Shown here piece after piece: positions 174 to 44,200 of a stretch of 64,000 bases of DNA. A program made the position numbers and the translations under genes. The stretch is from positions 243,785 to 307,784 of the forward strand of contig NW_003147276.1 of the NCBI RefSeq assembly GCF_000003605.2, in the 5' to 3' direction. The stretch is from Saccoglossus kowalevskii. Its lineage: Eukaryota; Hemichordata; Enteropneusta; Harrimaniidae. The notes beneath the pieces were generated by a model, which made no database searches, was not told the DNA's origin, and worked only from the letters and a program-made list of their open reading frames with translations. Within the stretch, counting starts at the first letter, position 1, and the number at the start of each line of letters is the position of its first letter.

Positions 174-3100
174 CTACAGAACAAAGAATGAAATTTAATT
201 TCATTAGTTTTGAAAATCCATGACTTCCCAGTACTGTAAAATAATTTACTTTCGCTTGGAATTAATTTTCGCTGAAGGAATGATTCAGTGAAAATAAAAT
301 CCAGCGAATATACCTTTTTTTCCTATATATTACATTCAACTTATCAAAAATTAGTGAAAATAAATTCCATACAAAACACCCAAAAAGTCTTTTCAGTGAA
401 AATGAATTCCACCTAAAATATTTACAGTATCTGTTGTTTTATTAGCTGCCACCACATATATCTTAATCCAGTTCGTTTAGATTATTATTAATAATCTTTT
501 GCTTGCTCTTCATTAATGAATGTGAGTAATCCATGGATCTGATTCTGAACCCAACCCAATCTAAACTAATCCAATCTTTTCTTTTTCAATCCAATCGAGT
601 CCAGTATAATTTAATTCATTCCACTCTCAACTCCCAATAATTTAGTGCAATTTAATCCAATCAAAACCAATACAGTCTTATCCAATTTAATCCAGTCTAA
701 TCAAATCTATTGTAATCTTAACCAATTTAATCTATAATTCTATCAAATCTCAACCAATTAAGTATACTCTAATATAATCTAGAGAGCTCCAATTTCAAGT
801 TTAATCTAATACAATGCAGTCTAACCTTTTCATGTCACATGATCAACAATATACACAAGTTCATGTACCATGACTTACCCATATATAGTAGTCTTTCATA
901 AAGTGACTTGCCACGATATGCTTTATGTACAGCTTGTAAGCTACCCATGTGTGCCAGTCTACCAATACCAAGTAATGTATCACCAGCACCGTGTGGGCGA
1001 CGTCTTTCATGGAATTCACGAAGTTTGTCGGTGCATAATTTTCTAGCTTTTCGTCTAGCATCTTCGTCAGTTTGCATTTTCAACCATGGATGACGGATGG
1101 CTTCCTGTACACTCATACGTTGTGGTTTTTCTTTCACCAGTAGTTTTTCAATGAAATCTAAGGCTTCATCTGATATATCGTCGAATGCCTCTTCATCAAA
1201 GTCCCACTCAGATTTTGAAACGTTACGAAGAGTTTCTTGGTCATCATCACCCAAGAATGGAGAAAGACCACTCAGCCTGAATAAAAGGTGCAAATATCAT
1301 TAAAATTCCACCAAGAGAATAAGTTTTTGTTTTTGATTAAGTAGTTAGGAAACAATACACAATATCAATCAAATTAATTTAACTATTTTAAATTTGTCAT
1401 GTAACTTATTTATCTTAAAATATTATGGCAAGCGATTACCGTAACCCTTTGAAAGTTGGTGCAACATTTTCAATTTTCTGTGTATTTTTCATAATTTTGC
1501 TGTTAATTTTCGACCAAACAGACATGTTTTTAGAAGATAATTGGAAATAAATTAGGTGGTAAATAGCAATTTTATCATTCAAAGTGTTACAACTGAGAAT
1601 AAACATATAAACAAAGCTGAGTAAACAATTGGGAAAATTCTAGAACATAGACAAGAGAAAAAGTTAATCACAATTGCTTGGTGACCATAGTTCTAGTGAA
1701 AGCTTTGTAAGTAGACATATGGCATGGATAACATTACAAAAATCAAATTAAATAGTTAGTCAACCATTTCATCTAAATTAGTTTAACTGCTTACATTCTT
1801 TGCAAGATTGACTCATGAGTAAACAAAACAAAAACTACAGGCATAATAACTGATATGTTTGTATTTTATTCCCTGAAAAGCAATTGTCTGGAACAGACAT
1901 ATTTTCCTAAATACAGGAGCATATATTGAAACTGTTTTCATCCATGTGTGACTCATTTTCCGTTTTTTAATGATCAAAATAAATAGAGGAACTCTCACAA
2001 ACAAACAATTTATCGGTTCAAGTAACATTTCAAATTATATTGAAGAACAACAAATTTAAATGGTAATTTACTTTCACAATGAGCAAAACTTCATGTAACA
2101 GAGTTCTTTTTCACTACACCACATTATTTCAGCAAAAATACATAAATATTGAAAACATGATGAACTTACAATATATATGCCATGACTCCAACAGTCCACA
2201 TATCAGTCGGTAAACCAATAGGTTCAAAGTTGACAACTTCTGGTGCCACGAATTCAGGTGTACCAAACATTACTTTGATTTGTTCACCAGGATCCATATG
2301 GCGTGCGAGACCGAAGTCAATCAACTTGATGTCATAACCAGTACGTGTTGCACATAAGATGTTCTCAGGCTGAAAATAAATAAACACACAACATCAGTTT
2401 AGAAAAATCAGTAGAATACTGGACAGAATGAACATACAATAATCTGTTATGGTTTTTTTTTTTTTTTAAATATTATTACCGATACCAACTATTTGTATCA
2501 ATGAACTCAAAATGTGATCTTTTCACCAGAGTTTATGTTTTTGCTATAGAAGGCTCACTTATTTGTAATTCATGATCCAATAAAAAAGGATGCTGCTTTG
2601 ATTTTTTGATAAAAGATGCGGCATGGCATCATATTTGATCAAGGCAGTAAATGTGTTCTGATTCAGTAAATGCATATATTAGTATTCGTGTATACAAAAT
2701 GCATACAGGCACTGCATGTAATGACTATGGTATTTTGAGATGTGCACTTTGATGCTTCACATGCAGGCACTGCATGTAATGACTGTGGTATTTTGAGATG
2801 TGCACTTTGATGCGTCACATGCAGGCATTGCATGTAATGACTGTGGTATTTTGAGATGTGCACTTTGATGCGTCACATGCAGGCACTACATGCAATGACT
2901 GTGGTATTTTGAGATGTGCACTTTGATGCGTCACATGCAGGCACTGCATGTAATGACTGTGGTATTTTGAGATGTGCACTTTGATGCGTCACATGCAGGC
3001 ACTACATGTAATGACTGGTATTTTGAGATGTGCACTTTGATGCGTCACATGCAGGCACTGCATGTAATGACTGTGGTATTTTGAGATGTGCACTTTGATG

Positions 3101-6100
3101 CGTCACATGCAGGCACTGCATGTAATGACTGTGGTATTTTGAGATGTGCACTTTGATGCGTCACATGCAGGCACTGCATGTAATGACTGTGGTATTTTGA
3201 GATGTGTACTTTGATGCGTCACATGCAGGCACTGCATGTAATGACTGTGGTATTTTGAGATGTGTACTTTGATGCGTCACATGCAGGCACTGCATGTAAT
3301 GACTGTGGTATTTTGAGATGTGCACTTTGATGCGTCACATGCAGGCATTGCATGTAATGACTGTGGTATTTTGAGATGTGCACTTTGATGCGTCACATGC
3401 AGGCACTGTATGTAATGACTGTAGTATTTTGAGATGTGTACTTTGATGCGTTTCTAATCGAGCAAATACTTACCTTGATATCAAGATGTAGAATATTCTT
3501 TTCATGCATATATTTGATGCCATCACACAACTGTCTCATGTATATCACAACCTCAGGCTCAGTTAGGACGTAGTTTTCGTCAATTAAACGTTCAAAGAGT
3601 TCACCACCAGACAAGCTTTAAATGAAATATTCAAACAAATTGTTATACAAGCAGAAAAGATTGTGAGTTTTACTATCAGAGGAATTTAATTAAATTTTCT
3701 CACTATGCCACTATAATAGAAAGATGATCACACAGTCCTGTCATGTAGTCCGAAACTGGATGATGATCTCTATTGCAAAATGCACTATATGTCAGCTCTC
3801 GCACTTGGACAATGCACAAAAAACGTCAGGAGAGACAAGAGTGGCATTCAATGTTCGACAGTGTCGACTGGCACAAAAAAAAATAAATGTAATTATCCAA
3901 CTTACAATTCTAGAACCATGATAATTTCTTCATCCGTTTCAAATACTTCATGTAATTGCAATAAGCGTTTATGATGTAACTGACACATTATTTCAATTTC
4001 TTTTTTAACGGCTTTTCTTTCATCTTCTCCAACTGTAATAAACTTAGCAGCCCAAGTCTTGGTGGTTGTTTTCTCAATTGCACGATAGACAACACCATAT
4101 GCTCCCCTAGAATCCAATGAATAGTTAGTTTTAATACTCACAAAAGAAGGAAGGAAAATAAAAATAATGTGCACTGGTGGGGAAAAGAAAATCATAAAAA
4201 TTTGTACAACTGACAATTCACATTTTAGACCTCATGAATGGTTATAAATAGTATCAAAATAATGTTAATAAAATAATAGTGGCTATGGGTAATTTCCAAC
4301 TCGATCCTTACCTGCCAAGTTCTTCACATATTTCATAATGATCATACACAGATCCAGGTCGGCCACGTATCACATCGTATGGCAAGAAATCCAAATCAAC
4401 TTGATTATCATAGAATTTACGCTTGTATTCATAATCTTCAAATTCAGGTCTTTCAGGTGAACGTGCTGAAAAAAAAGAACAATCATATTTCTGTCAAGAA
4501 TACTGTAGAACTGTTGCTATTTCGCAAGACACAATTTTTCATTAATTATGCAAATATGAATAAATCTTTGAAGTATCTAGCTGCGAATATTTCCCTATGG
4601 TCTTTGAGACTGAAAGTTACAGTCACTTTCACAAATGTCTTAAAATTAATATGAAATTAGCAATTTTCTGATACATTTTATTATCCAGCGTGTATCCCTA
4701 ACGTATGCAAGCATCTCTGAAAAGCTGATTTATACAGGGTCTTCTGGTTTGCAAAGAATCAACATTCAAGACAAGCCAAGTCCAAAATAATCAATATGCA
4801 CAATGAAATGGATTCAGCAAAGAGGCAATCGTTTTTATACATTTTTATTTTTTTTATACCTAAACTTTAAAAGCCACAAAGATATAGACCATAGGATGTG
4901 ACACCAGTACGAGGACGTATCAGACACAATAATTACAAAAACATAGAAAAATATAAAATTTAACTTTCTTTATACCAATTCTTTGAAGGTAAGGTTAGAC
5001 ATTTTAAACTTACGTGTGGTCTTTATAGTTTTACTAACTTCTGATGATTCACTTTCACCGTGGAGATTGAGAGCTCTAGTTCTGAACTGATACTCAGTGT
5101 GTTCCTTCAATCCAAGGATAGTATGTGATGTATTCCTTGTTGTTATACACCTTGTCCATGTATCAGTACCCACTTCACGTTTCTCAACAAAGAAAGACGA
5201 GACACGTGAACCGCCATCATACACAGGTGGCAACCAAGACAGACGAACTGAGTCTTTTGATACATCCATCACTTCAAGCTCCCTTGGAGGATCTGGATAC
5301 CGGAGAATCTTCAGCGTTACCGTACCAGTATCATGCCCAAGGCAATTGGAAGCTACGATAGCATACTGACCAGAATCCTCTTTGGTCACTTTGCGGATCG
5401 TGAGGTAAGTTTCATTGTCTGTTGTGTTGATTTCATAATGATCTTTATGTGCCAAATCAACACCATCCTTATCCCATGCAATAGTTGGTGTTGGTATACC
5501 AGAGTATGGTATGCGTAGTTTCACCATCTCACCTTGAACACACACCAAAGGTACTCTCAGACGAGCTGGTGGAGTTACTTTGGGTGCAACTGTTGAAAAA
5601 TTGAAAAAAAAGTGCATCAAGTTTACAAATCTCAGTACAAAGTATCTAATTTTACCCTACAAGTTTTTAGTTTGTATTTTTAAATAACAATTAAAAGTTT
5701 GCATTGCATTTCTGATAGTAATTTGAACAAATTGTGCTCCAAGTTACATGAACATTAATTTGCTGTTAATCACTAGAAACAGAATGAGTGTAGTTATTTT
5801 GTTTGCATCTACAAATGGCTCTAAGTATAATGTAGAAATGAGAAGAGTCAATAAAACAAGTTGTATTGTTTTGGTCTTTCTAAAAAACTAAATAAATACT
5901 GCACTGTTGTGTACATCGACAAAAATAAAAAGCTGATAGAATATAAAAGATCCATAAAAATTGTAGATGACTGTTACCTTGTATGAATAGCTGAGCTCTG
6001 GATGATATTGTAGCAGCTTTGTTATTGCATCTGATAGCATAGTCACCAGTATCCTCATTGTAAACATCTTTGATTGTCAGTGTATGAATATTACCATATG

Positions 6101-12100: not shown

Positions 12101-15100
12101 TTCAAAAACAATGAGAAACTCTACTTCTATTTCTTATTACATGACAGACAGATGTGTAATAAATTGATGAATTGTTTTGTTCAAGCCAAAAACCTTCCCT
12201 GTTACAAGAGGAGAGGCTGAATAAATTCATGACTGTTTCGCTCATGTCAGAATACCTACCTGTTACAAAAAGAGAAGCTGAAGTCCTCAAGTCAACACAT
12301 ACTGCGGTGTATTTAGCAATATCTCGGGGACCAACATTCTGGATAACGAGGGCACGTCTGTCACCATCAATGACAAAGTGTACTCTGTCAGTTTCGAAAA
12401 ACTGGATTCCATCCTTTTCCCATTTCACTTCAGCATTTTCATTGGATATAACACATTCAAATGTAACATTTTGTCCGACAGTGGCTCTGGTGTCATATAG
12501 TGATGTAATAAATTCAGCAAGTTCTAAAAAGAAGAGAAAAACATTAGTGATTACGACATCATAGACGGGGGTAAATGTAAATGAGTTTGGGCTTACACCG
12601 ACCATAACCATACACAGGTTAACAATGTATATAGTTATCAAATAAACCATCTAATTTTCACTGCAAACAATTCTCATGGTATTCGTTCATGAGGACAAAA
12701 TTTCTTGAAAGTCACTAACACTACATGTTCATAGAACTCACACAAAATTTTCACTGCTATAAAATTTCCCAACATTCACAAAATTGACTAAAAACAGTTT
12801 ACAGATGTTATCAACTAAAGAGAATTATCAAAACAGCAATATCAACTATCTTTAGTGTCTAGTAACCATGCTTGCCAGCGATCATTAGGCAATACTAAAC
12901 TTGAAATTTCATATGAGGGAGGGAGGGGACTATTATTAGTGGAGGTGTATAAACCCCAATGTAAGTATCCAACTTACCAACTGGTTCTCTTGCCTTTTCT
13001 GGTGCTGATGGTGCACTACATTGACTGACACCAGCTTCGTTCTCTGCAAATACTCTGAATTCATACTCATAACCATCAATCAATCCAGTTACTGTATGTG
13101 TAGTGTCAGTGATCAGTGTTCTATTGACAGGCATCCAGCGAGTAGCATGTGTCTCTTTTCTTTCAATCAAGTAACCTAGGATGTCCGCACCGCCATCATT
13201 ACGAGGTGGGCGCCATGAAAGCACCATCGAATCAGATCGATATTCTGTTACTTTTACATTTCCAGCTGGATCAGGTACATCTAGACAATCACAGAAAGTA
13301 TAGATACATTTAAGCTTTATAAATACATTCTAGAAACGAATACAAAATACTGCCCTCTATAGTATACTAGTGCCCTCTATAGAGTTTAATAATCTTAAGA
13401 GTAACCAAGTAATATTTTTGAAAGTCTAAGAGGTACATCTAAAACAAAGAATCCAGAGTTAAGTGTTAGATGTATAAACAGATAATGTAGCAATTAATAA
13501 CAAAAGCTGCCCTTTTTTATCATAGATTGTCATACCTATTGTCTTTATTAAACACAAGAGTTCATGTGTTTGTTAGGTAAATCTATTATCAATGAACTAC
13601 TGATAGCTATATAACATGAGCAATTTATAATACAGCTAATCAACAATATGTTTTGGATTATTTTAATATCCACGTAGCTAAAATGCTATACCTTACACAG
13701 AGTTGTGCATAGAATAAATAATATGAGGTTATTACCACAATACTGAATACACAAAAGAAGTACAGTCATCATGTCAACTGAGGTATAGCACAGGTTAATG
13801 CGACCCATGCTGCCTGAGTGCATTATTTGCAGTATTCTCGTAATAACCTTATCTTTTTCCTGCTTGTAGTGATAATTTATTAAGAGATAACAGGCCGAAA
13901 TGACATCAAAAAATGTTTTGTATTGTCCGAGCGTATGCGTGGTTGATGGAATTCTATTTCTATCATGCGCTAGTTCAAAGTAAACAGAGGAAAGTGTTTC
14001 AATATGATGTCAATAACTGGGAACATGTTAATGTTGGTGATGAAGTTTACTCCTTATAAAGGAAAATTGAAACTGATATATTTTGGAATAAGTGTGTTTT
14101 ACGGAACGGGAAAGTCTATTGTTTTTGCTGCTAGATGTACAATACTAAGTCTTACCATATGGACTTCTGACGAGTACAGGTTCTACTCCTTCTAATGCTT
14201 CACTGATACCATATTGATTCTGTGCCATAACACGGAACTGATATGCTGTACCATCAAGTAAACTGGTAACTGTGTATTTTGTACCAGTAACAGTCGATGA
14301 AACACGGCTCCATAGTGTACGACCATGGTCACGTTTTTCAAGAATATAATTGGTTATTTCACTTCCTCCATCTTCAAGTGGGGGCTGCCATTCTAAAGTT
14401 ACTGATGCTTTGGTGATATTGGAGAAGGACAGTGGTGGCTGTGGTGGTCCTGGTTTGTCTGTGTTTGGGAAACAATATTTATTCATTTGTTGTAAAATTA
14501 ATTTGTCAATTATTAGTAACTAAGTTCCAATTGTAGCACCGATTACAAAAGATAACAATTTTTTTGCAGGAATCTGCTACTCACTGTACAGTGTTACATT
14601 ACAAATATACAGCAATACTAAATGAATTGAAACACACATGGTGAGACAAAATTAATGTAGATTTGCAAGACTTACCAAGAACCATAACAGTAATGGTTGC
14701 GGTATCAGTACCAGCTTCATTACGTGCTTGTACAACGTACTCTCCACCATCTCGTCTTTCAGCTTGTTTGATCAGCAATGAACATCCATGCTCTGTTGTC
14801 TCAAGTCTTACTCTCAATACAGTCTTCATGACTTGACCATCTTTGTACCAGATAACAGTTGGTTCAGGAACACCAGAGATTGGTATATCCAATCGTAACA
14901 TTGTGCCAGCTTTGACGATGACAACATCAGTGTACTGGGATGGAAGTCTAATCTTGGAGGCAACTACAAATGAAAGAATAACATTTTGTGAGCTAAGTCT
15001 CCTACTCTCAATCCCCCTTTGCCAGAATTACAGCATTTTATTTAGACAGTAAGGTGACAGCCTTTGATCAAAATATTTTACCTGCAGGTTCCTTAGCTTT

Positions 15101-18100: not shown

Positions 18101-21100
18101 CAAAAATATAAATGAAATTTTGTTAATATGAAAGCAATTATATGAAAATTGTTACTAAGGTAATTTTATTACATAACCAAAATGTCAAATTATTATGTGA
18201 GTAATTATATGACTCACCATATTTGCTCTTGAGGTGTACTTTCTCAATAGTCTGAACAGGTTCACTCTCACCGACTTTATTGACAGCAATAATACGGAAA
18301 CCATAATCATAGCCTTCCATCAGATTAGTTACTCTGTGCGTAGTATCAGTGACGTTAGTGATACGTGCCCACACAGTTCGGGACATGTCGCGTTTCTCAA
18401 TAACGTAGTGGGTAACTTTGCTACCTCCATCATCACGAGGTGGTTCCCATGACAATGTGACTTGAGTACTGTTGATGTCTGAGACCATCAAATTCTTAGG
18501 TGGTGCTGGTCGATCTAACACTTCGACACGTACGGTTGTTGACGTATCACCAGCTTCATTAGACAACTTGAGTGTGTATGTACCAGAGTCAGCACGTACA
18601 CAATTCTTTGTTGTTAAGATGGTACTCCTGTCAGTACAATCTGATTTTACCCGGAAGCTTGTATCCAGTGGAAGGCCATCTTTCAACCATGTGACTGTGG
18701 GTTTGGGTGATGCTCTGTATGGCACATCAAGATGGAAAGTATTGTCCACTTTCACAACAACTGTGTCTTTTATCTTGCTTGTGTCAAGTTGTGGGGCAAC
18801 TGAAATAATCAAAGTTTGGGGTCAGTACATTTACAGGAACAGTTTGTGCATGAGGATCAGACATATTAACCTTAACACCTGAAATAAATATACAACCACA
18901 GAACAAGATGATAGGCAGCCTCTTCCAAGGACTTACTTTAAATAACTTAACCATCATACTGAAAACTAATATTTGAGGGTGCATCAGACTTTATAATTTA
19001 TTTCTGCTCATAAAATTATTGTTATGGTATGTGGGAACTATTTTCTTCTTCTTCAAATTAGCTTGGTACATGTAACTACCGTATATTACAAAGCACAATA
19101 AACTGGTTTGTACCAGAAAGGACATGAAAATAGCAATGGATAATGTACATGTACTCTCAGTAATTAGCCAGGAGTGTCTGGGTGCAGACACTAATACTTG
19201 ATCCGTTAGAGTGACTGAATGCACACCTCAAGATAACCGTCATCAGTATAATGTGTTTAAATCAATGAGAATATTTGGAAGACACTGCATGAGTCAATGC
19301 AAGCAAGCAAATTTATGTTAATGGAGAATTTATTTGGAAATTTTGAAAATTAGACTGATCGTTTTGCAAGTGTGATGTGTGTTTTTTCATGCATGTTGGG
19401 GTTGAGAAAGGAATGTAACATGCGTACATGAATAGGAGGTGAATTTTAATATTTTGTCACATAGAGGGATTTTAGTAGTATTGTGAAATGTGGTGACTGT
19501 TTTGAGTTATTTTTCTTAACAAATTAGGAATTAATCGGAAGACACATGCCATGGGGAGCACTGTGAGTCATGTCATCGATTAGTCTTCGGCTTATTGGTG
19601 CATTCAAGCTAATAATTGGTCGTTCCTCAAGTTCGTAATATGTTGGTGATGTCATCAATTTACTACTACTGTAGTTTTTAGCCATCACACTAGCATAGCT
19701 ACTTAGTATAGGTCTGTCATCCCATTTAAAAATCCCAGAGTCTGAAAACACAAAATATAAACCTTGGTTTTCTTGACATTAACATTAATAATCACACTTT
19801 TTCTATACCTTGTAACCCATTAGAATCTTAAAGATCACCACCAACTTACTACTCACTATTGTAAACCATGTTTCACTGAAGGTAAAATATTTGCGATTTG
19901 ACAATTTTATAGCATAGCATTTTATGAATGTCACTGATAATACTGTACATGTTGTATAACCCAAAATAAAATGTCACTGTTACAAAATTTCAAGATTTTC
20001 ACTGACTTGCGAAATTCACAAACATTTGCCTCTTGCAAAGTTAATGGTTTACAAACTCCCTCCACCTATGTATACAACTCAGTGCTTGAAATTCTGAGGT
20101 CATTCAAACTCGTCAACATTTTCTCATTCTGATTCAATTATTTTTAGGAGTTTTTGTCCCGAAAATGGCTGTGGATGCCTTCTGAATACTGAAGTTCAAG
20201 CTCTGAATTTCCTACACCCAATGATTCAATCTTTCCAGTTAATTCAGCTTTGAACCACATTCACAAGCTCATCTCGACCCATTATCTGAGATACTATTGT
20301 CCATCACTATATAGGCAATTAAAACCAAGATAAGTATACCACACTGTTATTAATCAATTAGTATTGGCAATGTCCTAAACAATATACAAACTGATAACAC
20401 AATATAGCTTTAAACACACTTCTACTCATAGTGGACAATCCAGTTGGAAAACAATCTTAAAACTCAGATTCTCAATGTACTCATTTCAGGTAGCAAGTTT
20501 GAATAGAAAGTAAGCAGCTATATATATATAGATATATATATAAAGGGAGCTTGTACAAACTTTTATTTATAGTTTTACAATAAATGTACATAATTTTACA
20601 GTTTTAGGAATAAGTTTATAAGTATACACAGATAAATTATGCAGGTTAACTTAATATAAAGTGCACACATGTTGACTTTGGTGCCTAAAGTTTTCATGAA
20701 AATAAGTGATGGCAGTTGTTGAATCAATGCATACCACTTATATTATACTCCTAAAATTGAAAGTACAATAAATTAGGTACATACCTGCTACTGCTCTTGG
20801 TTCAGTTGGTCTGCTGGATTTACCAATACCTGCTTTGTTCTCAGCAGCAACACGGAACTGATAGTCAATATTTTCTCTCAAACTTGTGGCTGTGTATGTG
20901 GTGGTTTTCACAACATCTGTGTTCATTCTGACCCAGTGTGTGGAGTATCTCTCAGATTTTTCAACGATGTAACCAGTGATTGGAGCACCTCCATCATTAA
21001 GTGGAGGAAGCCATGTTAGAGTCATTGTGCTGTTGGTCATGTTGGATAATTCAGGTTTTTCTGGTGCACCTGGTACATCTATGAAATATAAATCAGTGAG

Positions 21101-27100: not shown

Positions 27101-30100
27101 TTTTTCAGTTAGTTATTAAATTTAGTATCATACTAAGAATAACTAAGAATAAAATAAATATTTATAATTGGTTATAGAAAACAAACCAACTAGTATGCTT
27201 AATTAAACCTCAAGAGATATAAATATCTTACCATATGGTGGTTTGGCTACTTTAGCAGCTGAGGGATAACTTGGTTTGCCAACACCAGCTTTGTTCTCAG
27301 CACTGACTCTAAACTCATATCTAGTTCCCTGGATCAGATCTGTCACAGTGTATGTCAAATCTTTGACCGGTTTTCTGGTTGCTAATGTCCACTTAGCTTT
27401 GCTTGTGTCCTTCTTTTCAATGATGTAGCCAGTTATAGGTGCACCACCATCAGATACAGGGGGTGTCCAGGTGATGGTCATGAATGATGCATCAACACCA
27501 GATACGGAAGGTGATCCAGGTTGTCCGGGTACATCTGAAAAGATTAGAAATCCAGTTCATGTAATGTCTTTAAGAAATACAGCAGTAACTTTCTTTTCTA
27601 ATTTTGGGAAATAAATCACTGCTGATAATTGTTTGACAATACCTTGTCTATTCATCGGGAAGTGTATATAAATAAATCAATGTAACAATGCAGGATTCTA
27701 GATCTACATATTAATGGTCCAATTATATAGAAAATAATGCTTTATCTGCCTCATTAGGGTACCCTAGAGAATTAATGTGAAATAATGAAGACTATGCCAA
27801 CATACCATATGGTGGTTTAGCAACATGGGCTTCTGATGCTTCACTGGGTGTTCCAACACCTGCAGCATTCTCAGCACAAACACGGAATTCATACTGGTTA
27901 CCCTCAGACAAACCAGTGGCTTTAAATGTTGTATCTGTCAGAGCCATTCTGTTGATAGCCTGCCATCTTGTACTGAAGCGTTCACGTCTTTCAACAATGA
28001 AGCCAGTAATATCAGCGCCACCATCTGAGGTTGGTTTGGTCCAGCTCAAAGTCATAGATGTCTCGGTGACATCTGATACAACTGGTTTACCAGGAGGACT
28101 TGCAAGCTCTATAAGAATGAACATAAATTAGGGTTTAAAACTTCCGCTTTCATGTCTGTGTGTTTATATTCCAGCAAACATGTACACGCAATGATTATTC
28201 TTTCAACAAAAGTAGACAGGTATGCAAATCAGTCATTATGTATAGAACTCTATAGATAATGATTGATTTGCATATTAACTTTCTTATTTGAGTAATTAAT
28301 TTATAGTTATAATTAATTATGCAACTAAGAAAATTAATATGTAATAACAATATTTCATTTTGCTTTCAAACTTACGATAAGGTGACTTGGCCACTTCTAT
28401 TTCCGATGGATTACTGTATGGTCCAACACCAGCTTTATTCTCAGCAGCAATCTTGAATTGGTACTTTGTACCTTCCGTTAGTCCAGTAACCTTATAAGAT
28501 GTGTCCAGAACTTCTTCAAAATTTACACGACTCCAGTAGAATCCAAATGCTTCTTTCTTTTCTATGATGTAATTAGTGATTGGAGCTCCACCATCTGATT
28601 TAGGTTTTGTCCAAGTCAGTGTCATATTTGTTTTATTGATGTTTGAAATTTGAGGCATACCAGGTGCTTCAGGTGGATCTGAAAGAACGTAATTTAAGAC
28701 AACAGCTATAACAGGGTCCATAGCACCAAGAGCCAAATAATTTCCAAGACTTTTTCAGACCTTTTCCCAAACTTTCTTGCATTTTTCCCAGGACATTTTG
28801 ACCCTTAATTCAGGCCAACATCATCACCAAAGTTCTGAGGATATGGTAGTTCCCTGGAGAAAATGGGCCTTTCTAAAAATGAATTAATAACTATGAAGAA
28901 ATTCTTTTATTTTTCCTGTAATTTAAAGACAACCCAAATACTTTCCAAACACTTTCAAAGAATGTTCCTGACGTTTTGGTCTCTGTGTAAAAATGTGCCT
29001 ATACATACAAACTGTGTTTAACCTTTGAAGTATGCTATCATTTTGTCTGTGAATTGGTAAAAATCACATGACCATATTTACTGGTAAAAGTAAACAACAT
29101 CTGTTTATATATTACACTCACCATATGGTGCTTTAGCAGTTTTGAGTTCAGATGCTTCACTAGGCTTGCCAACACCAGCTTTGTTCTCAGCAGCAACTCG
29201 GAATTGATAGGCAGTTCCTTCAGACAAGCCAGTAACAGTGAATGTAGTGTCTAGTACAGCATCTCTAGAAGCTCTCATCCATCGAGAGGAGTAGCAATCT
29301 TTGCGATCAATGTAATATCCAGTCACAGGACTGCCTCCATCATTGACAGGTGGAGTCCATGTCACAGTCATCTCATGACAATCAGCAGCAACAATGTTAG
29401 GTTTTCCAGGTGGCATTGGTAAGCCTGAAAAATAAAAGTGGATATAATAAACCATTTCAACATACAGAAGCTGTTTTCACTTCAGAACATAGCACCGACT
29501 TTTCGTCAACTTGACTGAATCTACATAATGCACAAGTATGCAGTATGTGAAGTGAGTTTAAAGTGCACCAGTCTTAGTTCACTTTAAAAAAATATTTCCA
29601 TACTTAACCTAGAAAAATAACTACTTACCATATGGTGGTTTAGCAACAACACTTCTTGATGGTTGACTTGGACTACTTAATCCAGCTTTGTTTTCAGCTA
29701 ACACACGGTAAACATACTCATTGTTCTCCAATAAGTCTGAGACTTTTAACATTGTGGCTTTCATGGGTGTAGCATTCACTCTGGTCCATCTGGTAGCAAA
29801 CTTGTCCTTCTTTTCAACATAGTAACCGGTAACGGCAGCACCACCAGTTGACTCTGGAGGTGTCCAGTTGAGGATCATCGAATTTGCAGTAACGTCACTG
29901 ACAGAGGTTGTTCCAGGTTGGCTTGGTACATCTACACCGAGGTAGAGATTGTTGGCAAAAATTGTTGAAGTGGTCATCAAATCCATACAGCACTTCATGC
30001 AACAGCGTGCACCATAAAAATCAGGAACACTTTCATGCGTTTACCAGATGAATTGCACTCATGCGCATGCAGATTATGCAGCACTGATGATGGCAGAAAA

Positions 30101-33100: not shown

Positions 33101-36100
33101 TTAAATGAATCAAGATTGGCAAGACCACCAGTTTCAATGGTTTAGGAAGTAAAACTATAAATGATATTACAACAAGCCTTTTAAATCCATATAAATGGTA
33201 AAAAACCAAGGTTTATATAAGAAGCAGAGAATGTAGTTTTCTGGGTAAGAATCATGCTAGATTGGAAATTTGAAATGTTGTAATAAATTAAATATATGTC
33301 AGAGTTGCTATAAAACAAAGAACAGAAGACCTAATGTGAGGTGTAGGAATGACAAGAACCATGCAGACAAGTCTTCATGTGACGAGTAAGGATGCACACA
33401 CTCCAAGAGCCATGCAGAGAGTCTTGTGGTCCACTTACTATACGGATCCTTAGCAACAGTTGGTCTAGAAGGCTCGCTTGGAACACTAATACCTGCAGCA
33501 TTTTGGGCACTAACACGGAACTGGTATTCAGAGTTTTCCCTCAGATCAGTGGCATTGTAGACAAGATCTGTTGTCCTAGCAGCTGGCATCCATCGTGAGC
33601 TGAATTTTTCTTTTTTGTCAATGACATAGTTGGTGATAGCACTACCCCCATCAGAGTGGGGAGCAGCCCAAGTTAATGTCATGGTCATTTTTGAGACATT
33701 AGACACCAATGGTGTTCCAGGAGTATCAGGAATATCTGGTAAGTATGTGGAGACAGATTAAGTCAATGAAGAATGAAGATAAGAATACACAAAAGAAGCT
33801 TATTGTATCATTGAATTGGCAATATAGCAAGAGAAGACAAGTCATTGTCAATGACACGTCCCCGTTCCGTTCATATTTGAGTGACATATACATTCAAAGC
33901 AGCAACAATATGGATGTTGAACTGCATTCAGTAAAACAAAACAGCCACCAGTCAGCCATTTTCAACACATTCCAAAAAAAAATTTAAACTAAATTTGCCC
34001 ACGCATGACATAGATTCAGTTCCGGTATGGTGAAAATGTGCAATTTTTGTGAATTTTTGACCTTAAAAGGACTGGCCCAAATGCACAGGCATATGTATGA
34101 TATAATGTATGATGTGTATGTGAAGTTTGAACTTGATCTGCCCAGGCATGTCCGAGATATGGATCGAAAACTAAATTCTTTAAAACAAAATGGCCGCCAG
34201 GTGGTCATTTTGAACTTGATCCGAAGAAAAATTGGTATGCATCAAGCTTATATTATGTTTAATATATGCACTAAATCTGAACAAAATCCATCCATGCATG
34301 ACTGAGATCCGGTTCCGGAATTGTGAAAATACGTGATTTTGATGCATTTTTGGCCTTAAAATGGCCATCATTCAGCTATTGTTAAGCGGATCATGAAACA
34401 AATGCACATATCTATTTGTGACATGATATACNNNNNNNNNNNNNNNNNNNNNNNNNNNNNNNNNNNNNNNNNNNNNNNNNNNNNNNNNNNNNNNNNNNNN
34501 NNNNNNNNNNNNNNNNNNNNNNNNNNNNNNNNNNNNNNNNNNNNNNNNNNNNNNNNNNNNNNNNNNNNNNNNNNNNNNNNNNNNNNNNNNNNNNNNNNNN
34601 NNNNNNNNNNNNNNNNNNNNNNNNNNNNNNNNNNNNNNNNNNNNNNNNNNNNNNNNNNNNNNNNNNNNNNNNNNNNNNNNNNNNNNNNNNNNNNNNNNNN
34701 NNNNNNNNNNNNNNNNNNNNNNNNNNNNNNNNNNNNNNNNNNNNNNNNNNNNNNNNNNNNNNNNNNNNNNNNNNNNNNNNNNNNNNNTGAACTTGATCCG
34801 AAAAAAAAAATGACGTGCATCAAGGCCCTATTATGTTTAATGTATGTACCAAATTTGAACAAAATCCGTCCATGCATAACTGAGATCGGGTCCGGAATGG
34901 TGAAAATGTGCAATTTCAATGCATTTTTGGCCTTAAAGCGGTTGCATTTTGGCTATCGTTAATGAGATCATGAAACAAATGCACATACATATTTGTGACA
35001 TGATGTACCTTGTGTGTGTGAAGTTTGAACTTGATCAATCCAGACATGTTTCAGATACGGATCCAGAACTGAATTCTTTAAAACAAAATGACGTGCATCA
35101 AGGTCCTATTATGTTTAATGTATGTACCAAATTTGAACAAAATCTGTCCATGCATAACTGAGATCCGGGTCCAGAATGCTGAAAATGTAAGATTTTAATG
35201 CATTTTCGGCCTTAAAATGGCCGCTATTCGGCTATCGTTAATCGGATCATGAAAAAAATACATGTGCGTATGTCCCATATAATGTGTGATGTATGAGTGA
35301 AGTTTGAACTTAATCGGTCCATGCATGTTCGAGATACAGGTGATCACGGACGCACAGACGCACGCACAGACGCACACAGGGCAAAACATAAGTCCTTGTT
35401 TTCGGACTACGTCTGAACGGGGACTAACAAGCAAATCAAAACAGTACAGTATAAGTTTAGGGTATGGGAGTGGGCGACATAGTCCAAGAAGAATCTAGAA
35501 GGTTACAAAAGATTGTGTGTACTTACCATATGGTGGCTTAGCAATAACTGGTTTTGATGGTTTACTTGGTTCACCAACACCAACATTATTCTCAGCTGAC
35601 ACTCTAAACTCATACTCAGCTCCTTTAATCAGTTCTGTTACTGTCTGTACAGTTTCTTTCACAGATGTTCTTGTGGTTCTTACCCAACGCTCTTTGCTTG
35701 TATCATGCCTTTCAACATAATACCCTGTGATTCTAGCTCCTCCATCTGATTCTGGTGGTGTCCACTGTACAGTTGCCTGCGTTGCCTTAACACCATACAC
35801 AGTTGGTATTCCAGGTGCCTCAGGAACAGATAGTTTCAGAGTCACTGGATTGCTAGGTGTGCCAGCACCAGCTTTGTTCACAGCTAATACACGGAATTCA
35901 TAGTCACTTCCTTCTGTCAAGTCTCTTACAGTGTAAGAGGCATCAAGAACAGGTGTTTTGTTATCCTTTACCCATCTGGTGCCGAATTTCTCTCTCTTTT
36001 CAATGATATATCCGGTAACAGGAGATCCACCATCATCAGTAGGGGCTGTCCAGGTCAGATGCAAGGATGTTGGCTTCACATCGGACATCGATGGAATACC

Positions 36101-41200: not shown

Positions 41201-44200
41201 AAGATCTGGTATGCTCATCTTGTTGACTTTTGCCCATCTGGTGCTGAATTGCTCTTTGACTTCAATGATATATCCAGTTACAGGAGAACCACCATCAACT
41301 CTAGGTGGTGTCCAGGTTAGTGTCATTGATGTTGATGTAGTATCAGATACATCAGGTGTGCCAGGTGGACCAGGTACATCTGTACAGATAGAATCAATAT
41401 CAGGAGACTATAGGAGATTGTTCAAATGGGGGTAGAATTTATACCCCTGTGTTTATGTTGTAATGCCACTGATACATACAAACACAAACATTGGGATTGT
41501 GTCAAAACAAATGTTTGGCAATTTGTAGAAAAGATTTTGAGCATGATTTTAAATTGTCAAATAATATTGGACTTTGGAAGTCATATTGGTGGCTTGCCTT
41601 TGAAAAAAATTAATAACTAGCAAGAATATCAAATTCTGTAATTCTGATAGCTGGATAGTCTATTCACAAATACCATATATGCAATCTAATCAAAATATTA
41701 GTTTTTAAATACAAAGTGTATCAAAGAAAGAGGTTCAACAAATCCTATTAGACGCATATTCTTAACTTTAATTACTGTGTATATTTGCTAATGCCATTAT
41801 TTTCAATTTAGTTATGTACACTACAATGAGTAAAATAAATATTTTAAATAAAAAAAATAATTGTATGTCGATGATTTTATCATTGTATTAATGTTTATAA
41901 TCAGTCTGATTCTATCATTGTATTATTGTTTATATTGTTTATAATCAGTCTGGATATTTGGAGAGTGCCACATGTGCAGTAAGATGCGTTTTTGAAACAT
42001 CTGAAATGATTTTTTGAGTTTCAGTCATTTTTATTTCACTGACTTGAACATGTACATGCATTGTGGGAGAATCAGTCCATTGTGTTCTTGGAGTTGTTAT
42101 GGATTTTGATTTCATCTTCCAAAGAGTATTGAAACTTTGTATAGTCCATTGCATGGATTTTTGGAACACTGAAATAATAAGACAAAAAAACCAACATTCA
42201 AAATTTACAACAAAATATCACTGCAGTCTTACCGTATGGTGGTTTGGCAATGACCGGGCCAGCTGGTTCACTTGGTTTTCCAACACCTGCTTTGTTTTCT
42301 GCAGCAACACGGAATTCATATTCAGTTCCATGTTTTAGATCTGTTACTTTAAATGATGTTTCTGTCACGGCAAATTTATTTGTTTTGACCCATCGAGTTG
42401 AGAATTTCTCCCTCTTTTCAATTACATAGCTTGTAATGAGAGCACCTCCATCTGAGAGTGGAGCTCTCCAGTTGAGGGTAACAGTTGTTGATGTAACATC
42501 TGTAATGTTGGGTTTACCAGGAGCATCAGGTACACCTACAATATAGATACATAACCAGTAAGCAACAATATAATTAACCGCTTTGTTTGAAAGATTTTCT
42601 TCCTAATTAATATTATATTAATAAGAATGTCTCAAGTAGGCACAAACCCATGAAAGTGGATATGACCATGTACTGTCCGAGTTTAAACTTTCATTACGTT
42701 TTTTTGGTAAAGAAATAATGTGGATTTTTTGTGAAGTTCACTTTGTAACTTAAATCATTAATGAAACCATGAACATGTATTGTGTACAATGTGTAGTATG
42801 GAAATGCCATGAGATAAACCGACTTGCTAAGAAAAAAACAAAAAAAACATTGCACTTACCATATGGTGGTTTGGCCTTTCTTGGGTCAGATGGCTCACTT
42901 GGTGGTCCAACACCAGCTTTGTTCTCAGCACTGACTCTAAACTCATACTCGCTTCCTTCAAATAGATCTTTAATCATGAAGTGAAGATCAGGTAGTGCAT
43001 CTCTATTACATCTAATCCATCTTGATGTGCTTGTATCCTTCCTTTCAATGATATATCCAATAATGGGACTTCCACCATCATTTCTAGGTGGTTTCCATGA
43101 GATACTGATAGTTGTGGCATGTGAATCAGTCACATCTGGTCTGCCAGGGGCACCAGGTAAGTCTGTTAAAAAAAATGAATTAAAACCTCATAAAATGAGA
43201 TTTTTTCATTCCCTTAAAAAATAGGTAAATTCCACAAGATCATTTTTGAAAGCTAGATTTCTTAAAATAATTTAAGTTTGAGTCAGATCATATTATTTTT
43301 GAGGTTGTGTATTGGCCATTAAAATGTCAAACAGTTTGAAAGTTGCTGGTGCCCGGTCAACTGGTTTGTGATCTTTGATTGTCGAGGGAAAGTGTTCCAG
43401 TCAATGAGCTGGAGAGCAAATTTCACTGATAAACACAATTTGATGGATAATTTGTGTATAGCTAGGCTGCAGGAAACCAATAATGGTTTGCCTCAAACAA
43501 AGTTTTGAATAGTGATATTAGATCAAACACCGTTGTCTATACACATTTGCATAATATTGGCTACAATATCATAAAAACACACATCTTGTCTGATAACAAC
43601 CCAGGACAGGTGACTGTGATCTCATTTTCTTCTGTTGAAAGAATACATTGAAATTTTAACGGGGAAATTTTCAGTTTTGGTGACTGTACTCACCATATGG
43701 TGGTTTAGCAACCTTAGAATCAGTTGCATCACTTGGTTTGCCTACACCCACTTTGTTCTCAGCACACACTCTAAACTCATATGTGCTACCCTCTCTGAGA
43801 CTCTCAACAACAAAGGTGGTCTCAGTGATTTTGTATAGATTGACTTTTTCCCATCTGGAGCTGAACTGATCTTTCTTCTGAATGATGTAGCCTGTAACGG
43901 GACTACCACCGTCTTTTTCAGGGGGTGTCCATTTGAGGGTCATTGACGTAGCGGTGATGTCAGAGACAGAAGGTTTACCAGGGGCGTCTGGGACTTCTAC
44001 AGTGAGATGAAGGGGATGAAAGATAAAAAGAAAGATTTTGAAGACAAAAGACAAAGCAATACCTGTCAATGAGAGAAATTAGCAGAAGTGCAAGTGTAAA
44101 AGAAGAAAAGATAATAGTGCATGAATCCCTACTTATGAACAAGACACTGGCAAATACAAAGTTGATATAGAAAGGCACTAGGTACATCACATGTGTCGCA

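Follow-up and report, generated by a model that had tools for sequence, protein, structure and literature searches.

A candidate alternative last exon between the FN3 array and the Ig-FN3/kinase half of a giant titin/twitchin-type gene in Saccoglossus kowalevskii

The giant gene and the exon in its longest intron

The DNA described here is a stretch of 64,000 nucleotides (nt) from the enteropneust hemichordate Saccoglossus kowalevskii (RefSeq assembly GCF_000003605.2, contig NW_003147276.1, positions 243,785 to 307,784 of the forward strand), called the window below, in which position 1 is the first letter. The DNA is AT-rich (G + C content 31-41% in 2-kb steps) and holds one giant gene on the minus strand, which carries Ig, FN3 and kinase domains (Pfam I-set, fn3 and Pkinase). 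The subject of this paper is a candidate alternative last exon of this gene at 19741-19310, which would give a product devoid of the kinase. Such an exon had been proposed in an earlier, sequence-only reading of this DNA.

The FN3 array occupies the part between 63.7 and 20.8 kb (20785-63740, minus strand), mostly with one domain per exon. It contains 69 of the 81 pattern anchors and, in addition, two domains missed by the pattern (59686, Pfam fn3, expectation value (E) 3.1e-20; 28108, E 1.5e-18), and therefore the window contains 71 FN3 domains or more. Four frames of the array were searched with Pfam, and the remaining domains were recognised by pattern and by eye. The last exon of the array (20785-21078, minus strand, Pfam fn3 E 2e-18) ends with the donor CAG/gtatgt, whose final exon base is 20785, in phase 1. 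On the normal route the next exon is an Ig-FN3 exon (18218-18799, minus strand, Pfam I-set E 6e-16 and fn3 E 1.6e-18). The splice from 20785 to 18799 is plausible by its reading, RAVA-VAPQLD, which resembles the starts of the other Ig exons of the gene (VAPKL). Because the donor is at 20785 and the next exon starts at 18799, the intron between them, the host intron of the candidate exon, measures 1985 nt. It is the longest among the 81 introns of the gene model, from which the kinase introns are left out. The intron of about 2 kb that the earlier reading had placed at the boundary of the array and the Ig-FN3/kinase half is read directly.

The candidate exon opens at the acceptor tttatattttgtgttttcag/AC (19742/19741, minus strand, read directly), which is in the same phase, 1, as the host donor. 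The junction codon is G/AC (Asp), and it is followed by 71 full codons (19739-19527) and the in-frame stop TAA (19526-19524); the coding part (19741-19524, minus strand) encodes the peptide P0001. Behind the stop lies a putative 3′ untranslated region (UTR) at 19523-19310 with ATTAAA at 19450 and AATAAA at 19334-19329. The frame, the strong acceptor in matching phase, the stop and AATAAA are all present as the earlier reading had described them, while the T/G-rich stretch that it had noted behind AATAAA is there but is T/G-rich only to a moderate degree, by eye. Rfam gave nothing at the gathering threshold within 18800-20784.

Downstream of 18799, Ig and FN3 exons continue and are followed by the kinase exons, with approximate outer limits of 880 and 4120 on the minus strand; Pfam found Pkinase in four frames, and the motif pieces HLDIK, PEN, DFG and APE were recognised by eye. 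Among solved structures in the PDB, the C-lobe frame alone matched twitchin (1kob, 82.7 bits), MYLK4 (81.7), DAPK1 (80.0) and titin (78.1), and orthology to twitchin is not settled, because the bits of the other three are nearly equal. An Ig-like exon extends past the window end, by eye. A 58-bp tandem unit (13 copies, 96% matches) occupies 2702-3451 within a kinase intron, and a gap of N at about 34415-34830 (356 N in the window) lies within the second-longest intron of the model (1791 nt).

Splice signals, coding character and 3′ flank

Weight matrices were trained on splice sites of this gene, 75 acceptors and 74 donors, which are phase 1 by construction; the candidate acceptor was kept outside the training set and the real sites were scored leave-one-out. 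The candidate acceptor (last 20 intron bases, 19742-19761, minus strand) scores 11.0, and 67 of the 75 real acceptors score less. Only 7 of 1183 intronic AGs, the candidate included, reach 11.0. Three of these start Ig exons missed by the pattern (11891, 12523 and 14963, Pfam I-set), two open nothing (32944, 15 codons; 33307, 5 codons), and the remaining two, 19741 and 42168, open long frames and are neither Ig exons nor empty. The host donor at 20785 is weak (7.05 leave-one-out, within the ten lowest of 74). As a model of chance, first-order Markov versions of the 28,218 nt of intron were made in 200 runs. Frames of 70 or more open codons, in phase behind an AG scoring 10.9 or higher, turned up 0.03 times per run on average (6 of 200 runs had any), and the real introns have two. 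This threshold was set after the candidate had been seen, just below its score, so the row for AGs of at least 8 is the fairer test (mean 0.23, 39 of 200 runs; two in the real introns). With a threshold of 5 the mean was 0.77 (103 of 200 runs) and the real introns have three. A frame at 13969 (93 codons, acceptor 5.9) was rejected as chance, its codon score being -0.479.

The codon score is a per-codon log-odds of the exons of this gene against its introns. The candidate scores 0.078 and the second exon, at 42168, scores -0.020; both exceed all 80 control intronic frames of at least 40 codons, the best of which scores -0.072. One control frame (8521-8288), the sole control above zero initially, holds a piece of an Ig exon by eye and was masked in later scoring. 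None of 1500 stop-free order-2 Markov frames reached the score of either exon. With training on Ig-containing exons only, the candidate scores 0.063 and the second exon 0.011, the best control also reaching 0.011, and 0 and 1 of 1500 simulations, respectively, came up to them. For orientation, eight Ig-type exons and two kinase frames score from -0.091 to 0.452 with FN3 training. Furthermore, the score has edges: the first 26 codons of the candidate score 0.095 and the last 45 codons 0.067, and outside the exon it falls to -0.789 in frame upstream of the acceptor, where none of the three frames exceeds -0.347, and to -0.341 in frame behind the stop.

The stop is reached before any usable donor. 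From 19741 to 19300 a single donor-like site exceeds 3; it lies at 19664, and its score of 3.3 falls under all 74 real donors (minimum 4.3 leave-one-out). Since this site is in phase 1, the exon might instead be a symmetric cassette of 78 nt (19741-19664), which would add 26 residues and retain the kinase; such a cassette is hardly credible, as the site is so weak and the codon score stays high past 19664 as far as the stop. Inclusion of the exon up to its stop truncates the frame regardless of events downstream, and this would suit a poison exon, namely one whose premature stop leads to decay of the RNA and thereby tunes the amount of the giant protein, with no stable product. A donor scoring 7.3 or more is next met at 18937, 587 nt past the stop, and so a donor of normal strength for a poison exon is present; an exon reaching it, however, would measure 805 nt, no weaker donors (3 to 7.3) follow the stop in the part screened, down to 19300, and coding-like content up to the stop would be unnecessary for RNA decay. 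A poison exon is accordingly considered very unlikely.

The length of the host intron, the longest of the 81 in the model, counts in favour of an alternative last exon, and so does the composition of the 3′ flank. The 214 nt behind the stop contain 6.1% G, and 2070 overlapping intron windows, with a median of 16.4%, are all richer in G. Judged against introns, this may be read as 3′ UTR-like composition.

In addition, an internal promoter comparable to that of the titin product Cronos (PMC4720518) was considered for the host intron. Its three normal-strength donors are at 19857, 19850 and 18937. No ATG stands in the open phase-1 frame preceding 19850 or 18937, and the ATG preceding 19857 opens a frame of four codons; the exon at 18799 is preceded by 8 open codons, again with no ATG. 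On these grounds an internal promoter in the host intron is not supported.

Several results weigh against an alternative last exon. The contrast between the frames is 0.337 for the candidate and 0.336 for the second exon, and 6 of 80 control frames reach 0.30; as yardsticks, eight Ig exons show 0.39-0.72 and the 5th percentile of the FN3 exons is 0.57. With Ig training the contrasts are 0.171 and 0.24, respectively, against a control 95th percentile of 0.26. Synonymous codon choice is uninformative (0.005 per codon). Among 66 acceptor-led frames (closed, at least 20 codons, any phase) the candidate ranks second, behind a frame of 21 codons at 28872 with a score of 0.099. Matches in Markov introns are not rare once the acceptor threshold is relaxed, AATAAA within 206 nt is not significant, with a chance probability of 0.23 (0.39 counting ATTAAA), and the 587-nt gap free of donors is unremarkable, because normal-strength donors occur at 0.64 per kb of intron. 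The amino-acid make-up of the tail thus appears protein-like, and the coding case is borderline and not closed. The frame at 28872 (28807-28872, minus strand) is coding-like behind a fair acceptor (8.5) and is too short to judge.

These results bear on a chance explanation, that is, a fortuitous open frame behind a fortuitously good acceptor in a long intron, which is never or hardly spliced. The borderline frame contrast, the random matches at lax acceptor thresholds, the chance of 0.23 for AATAAA and the two strong intronic AGs that open nothing (32944 and 33307) agree with it; the strength of the acceptor, the codon score above all 80 controls, the coding edges at acceptor and stop, the G-poor flank and the existence of a second case do not. 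Chance is therefore regarded as an unlikely explanation, but it is not a negligible one.

The tail peptides and a second exon at 42168

P0001 (isoelectric point 6.7, 12 Ser among 71 residues) has no significant relative in Pfam or the PDB, and neither an fn3 nor an Ig family was found for it in Pfam, in agreement with the earlier statement that it is unrelated to Ig or FN3. A Pfam Beta-lactamase match (E = 0.16) was set aside as chance, and a match of residues 19-70 to the C. elegans caspase CED-3 in the PDB (E = 0.074) was rejected as not significant. A peptide so unlike the rest of the gene, together with this weak match, might mean that the intron harbours an exon left over from another gene, or a nested gene, that has nothing to do with the FN3 gene. 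The acceptor, though, is undamaged and fits the host phase, the frame is unbroken and the caspase match is not continued after the stop, by eye, and a remnant is regarded as very improbable.

A search of the window by tblastn with P0001 and with P0002, the peptide of the second exon, gave no non-self match under E = 0.35, and blastn of the two host introns gave, beyond self, AT-rich simple repeats and one 74-nt match of 73% (12768-12700); therefore no exon copies were found along the array. In contigs of prokaryotes and viruses no relative of P0001 was confirmed, nor one of P0002 in contigs of viruses only, and these collections are uninformative on conservation. The neighbouring Ig-FN3 exon, with which a contaminating animal contig was sought among the prokaryote contigs, gave no confirmed match.

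The segment KLMTSPTYYELEERPI of P0001, within residues 19-45, aligns with all three RPEL motifs of PHACTR1 (4b1z), with a whole-chain E of 1.8 and 2.5-3.8 bits for single motifs; the best ungapped score is 35, compared with a maximum of 29 among 20000 shuffles. The RPEL core is RPxxxEL, a pattern also visible in the RPEL motifs of the PDB, and in P0001 it reads SPTYYEL, with P, E and L retained and R replaced by S, so that it departs from the core. Pfam RPEL does not match P0001 up to E 10 with the HMMER filters on, while a PHACTR1 control of 20 amino acids gave E = 6.5e-9. Because it was picked post hoc from 177635 sequences, lacks the core R and is passed over by Pfam, the stretch is taken as a lead only. 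P0002 has no RPEL-like resemblance.

The second candidate last exon (41945-42168, minus strand, 73 codons and TGA, acceptor 11.6) is located inside the array, in an intron of 853 nt between two FN3 exons, and its anatomy is similar, which counts in favour of alternative last exons in this gene; the earlier reading, in its account of the exon at 19741, does not name it. Its host FN3 exon (42233-42535, minus strand, Pfam fn3 E 6.8e-20) ends with a donor at 42233 that scores 10.3 and is in phase with the 73 codons. From 42168 down to 41700 there is no donor-like site above 3. The putative 3′ UTR (41767-41944, minus strand) is G-poor and has ATTAAA at 41772, 175 nt past TGA; the 173 nt at 41944-41772 contain 8.1% G, and 0.85% of 2482 windows are as low. 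In the first 31 codons a rival frame scores higher (0.029 versus -0.083; the rival frame alone, 0.046), although only the 73-codon frame matches the donor phase. By these scores the reading frame at 42168 appears less certain than that at 19741. The tails P0001 and P0002 look unlike each other. P0002 has no Pfam family and no PDB match.

The proposed product and comparison with known systems

What the DNA shows at 19741-19310 is the sequence itself with its matching phase, a strong acceptor, protein-like codons bounded by acceptor and stop, and no normal donor nearby. From these, we take the element to be a real alternative last exon of this giant gene of titin/twitchin type, with a probability of about 0.72, and infer the use of the junction, the position of cleavage and the stability and role of the product. 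The host FN3 exon would be spliced from 20785 to 19741 in place of 18799, translation would enter a non-modular tail of 72 residues and end at the TAA at 19526, and the RNA would be cleaved behind AATAAA at 19334. The product would retain the FN3 array (at least 71 domains in the window) and lack the Ig-FN3 half and the kinase. Its most likely role, in certain muscles or at certain stages, would be that of an FN3 scaffold which has a C-terminal tail of its own but no signalling end. A further exit at 42168 would yield another product, built in the same way and shorter.

The acceptor strength, phase, codon score with its edges, absence of a normal donor and G-poor flank thus speak for the kinase-less isoform put forward by the sequence-only reading. 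Its term "elastic rod" for the FN3 array is unsupported, because FN3 domains of titin are in the A-band and the elasticity comes from Ig and PEVK parts of the I-band. Its interpretation as a whole is, on the present analysis, partly supported, and largely so at the level of sequence.

It is also conceivable, if improbable, that the exits at 42168 and 19741, or more of them, release FN3 rods of differing length with short tails of their own. In that case the diverged RPEL-like stretch of the 19741 tail would link the kinase-less rod with actin, and the thick filament and the kinase would be served by the full-length protein. As for the last exon at 19741 itself, its use would mean that the titin/twitchin-type gene of this animal separates an FN3 scaffold from the kinase by choice of the last exon. 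The contribution of the kinase half to an A-band-type scaffold could then be tested cleanly. With two exits in the same gene, it would seem that the length of the scaffold, too, is set in this manner.

In human titin, the novex-3 isoform takes in an exon (exon 48) that carries a stop, and the protein is thereby cut short to about 700 kDa (PMC5852582 and PMC4720518). The present exon would be similar in that a giant Ig/FN3/kinase gene carries a stop-bringing exon in one isoform, and the comparison with novex-3 made by the earlier reading is apt in this logic. However, novex-3 ends in the proximal I-band part, whereas here the exit follows a long FN3 array and adjoins the Ig-FN3/kinase half; the likeness drawn is one of design.

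Drosophila Sls is built mainly of Ig domains and PEVK; its Fn domains are few and it lacks a kinase, unlike the present gene with its FN3 array and kinase. In one of its isoforms an alternative stop codon ends the protein early, and kettin has been proposed to be its short form (PMC9886281); to that extent, an early stop leading to a short isoform would be shared. Furthermore, unc-89 (obscurin) of C. elegans yields kinase-containing and other isoforms through varied promoters, splicing and 3′ UTRs (PMC3388081), but its domain order differs, being Ig-rich with DH-PH and two kinases. As in twitchin and projectin, a kinase comes after the Ig and FN3 modules. For the long isoform of projectin the total is 39 Fn domains (PMC9886281), and the at least 71 FN3 domains which precede the Ig-FN3 part here are far above that number. 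No gene with a comparable FN3 array was seen in the accessible part of PMC12198301, and that of PMC3859903 does not name novex. No published description of such an isoform turned up in the literature searched, although one may exist. An exit at the junction of the FN3 array with the Ig-FN3/kinase half would, in comparison with the known truncations of the titin family, be at a different place, and its mechanism would be of a known sort.
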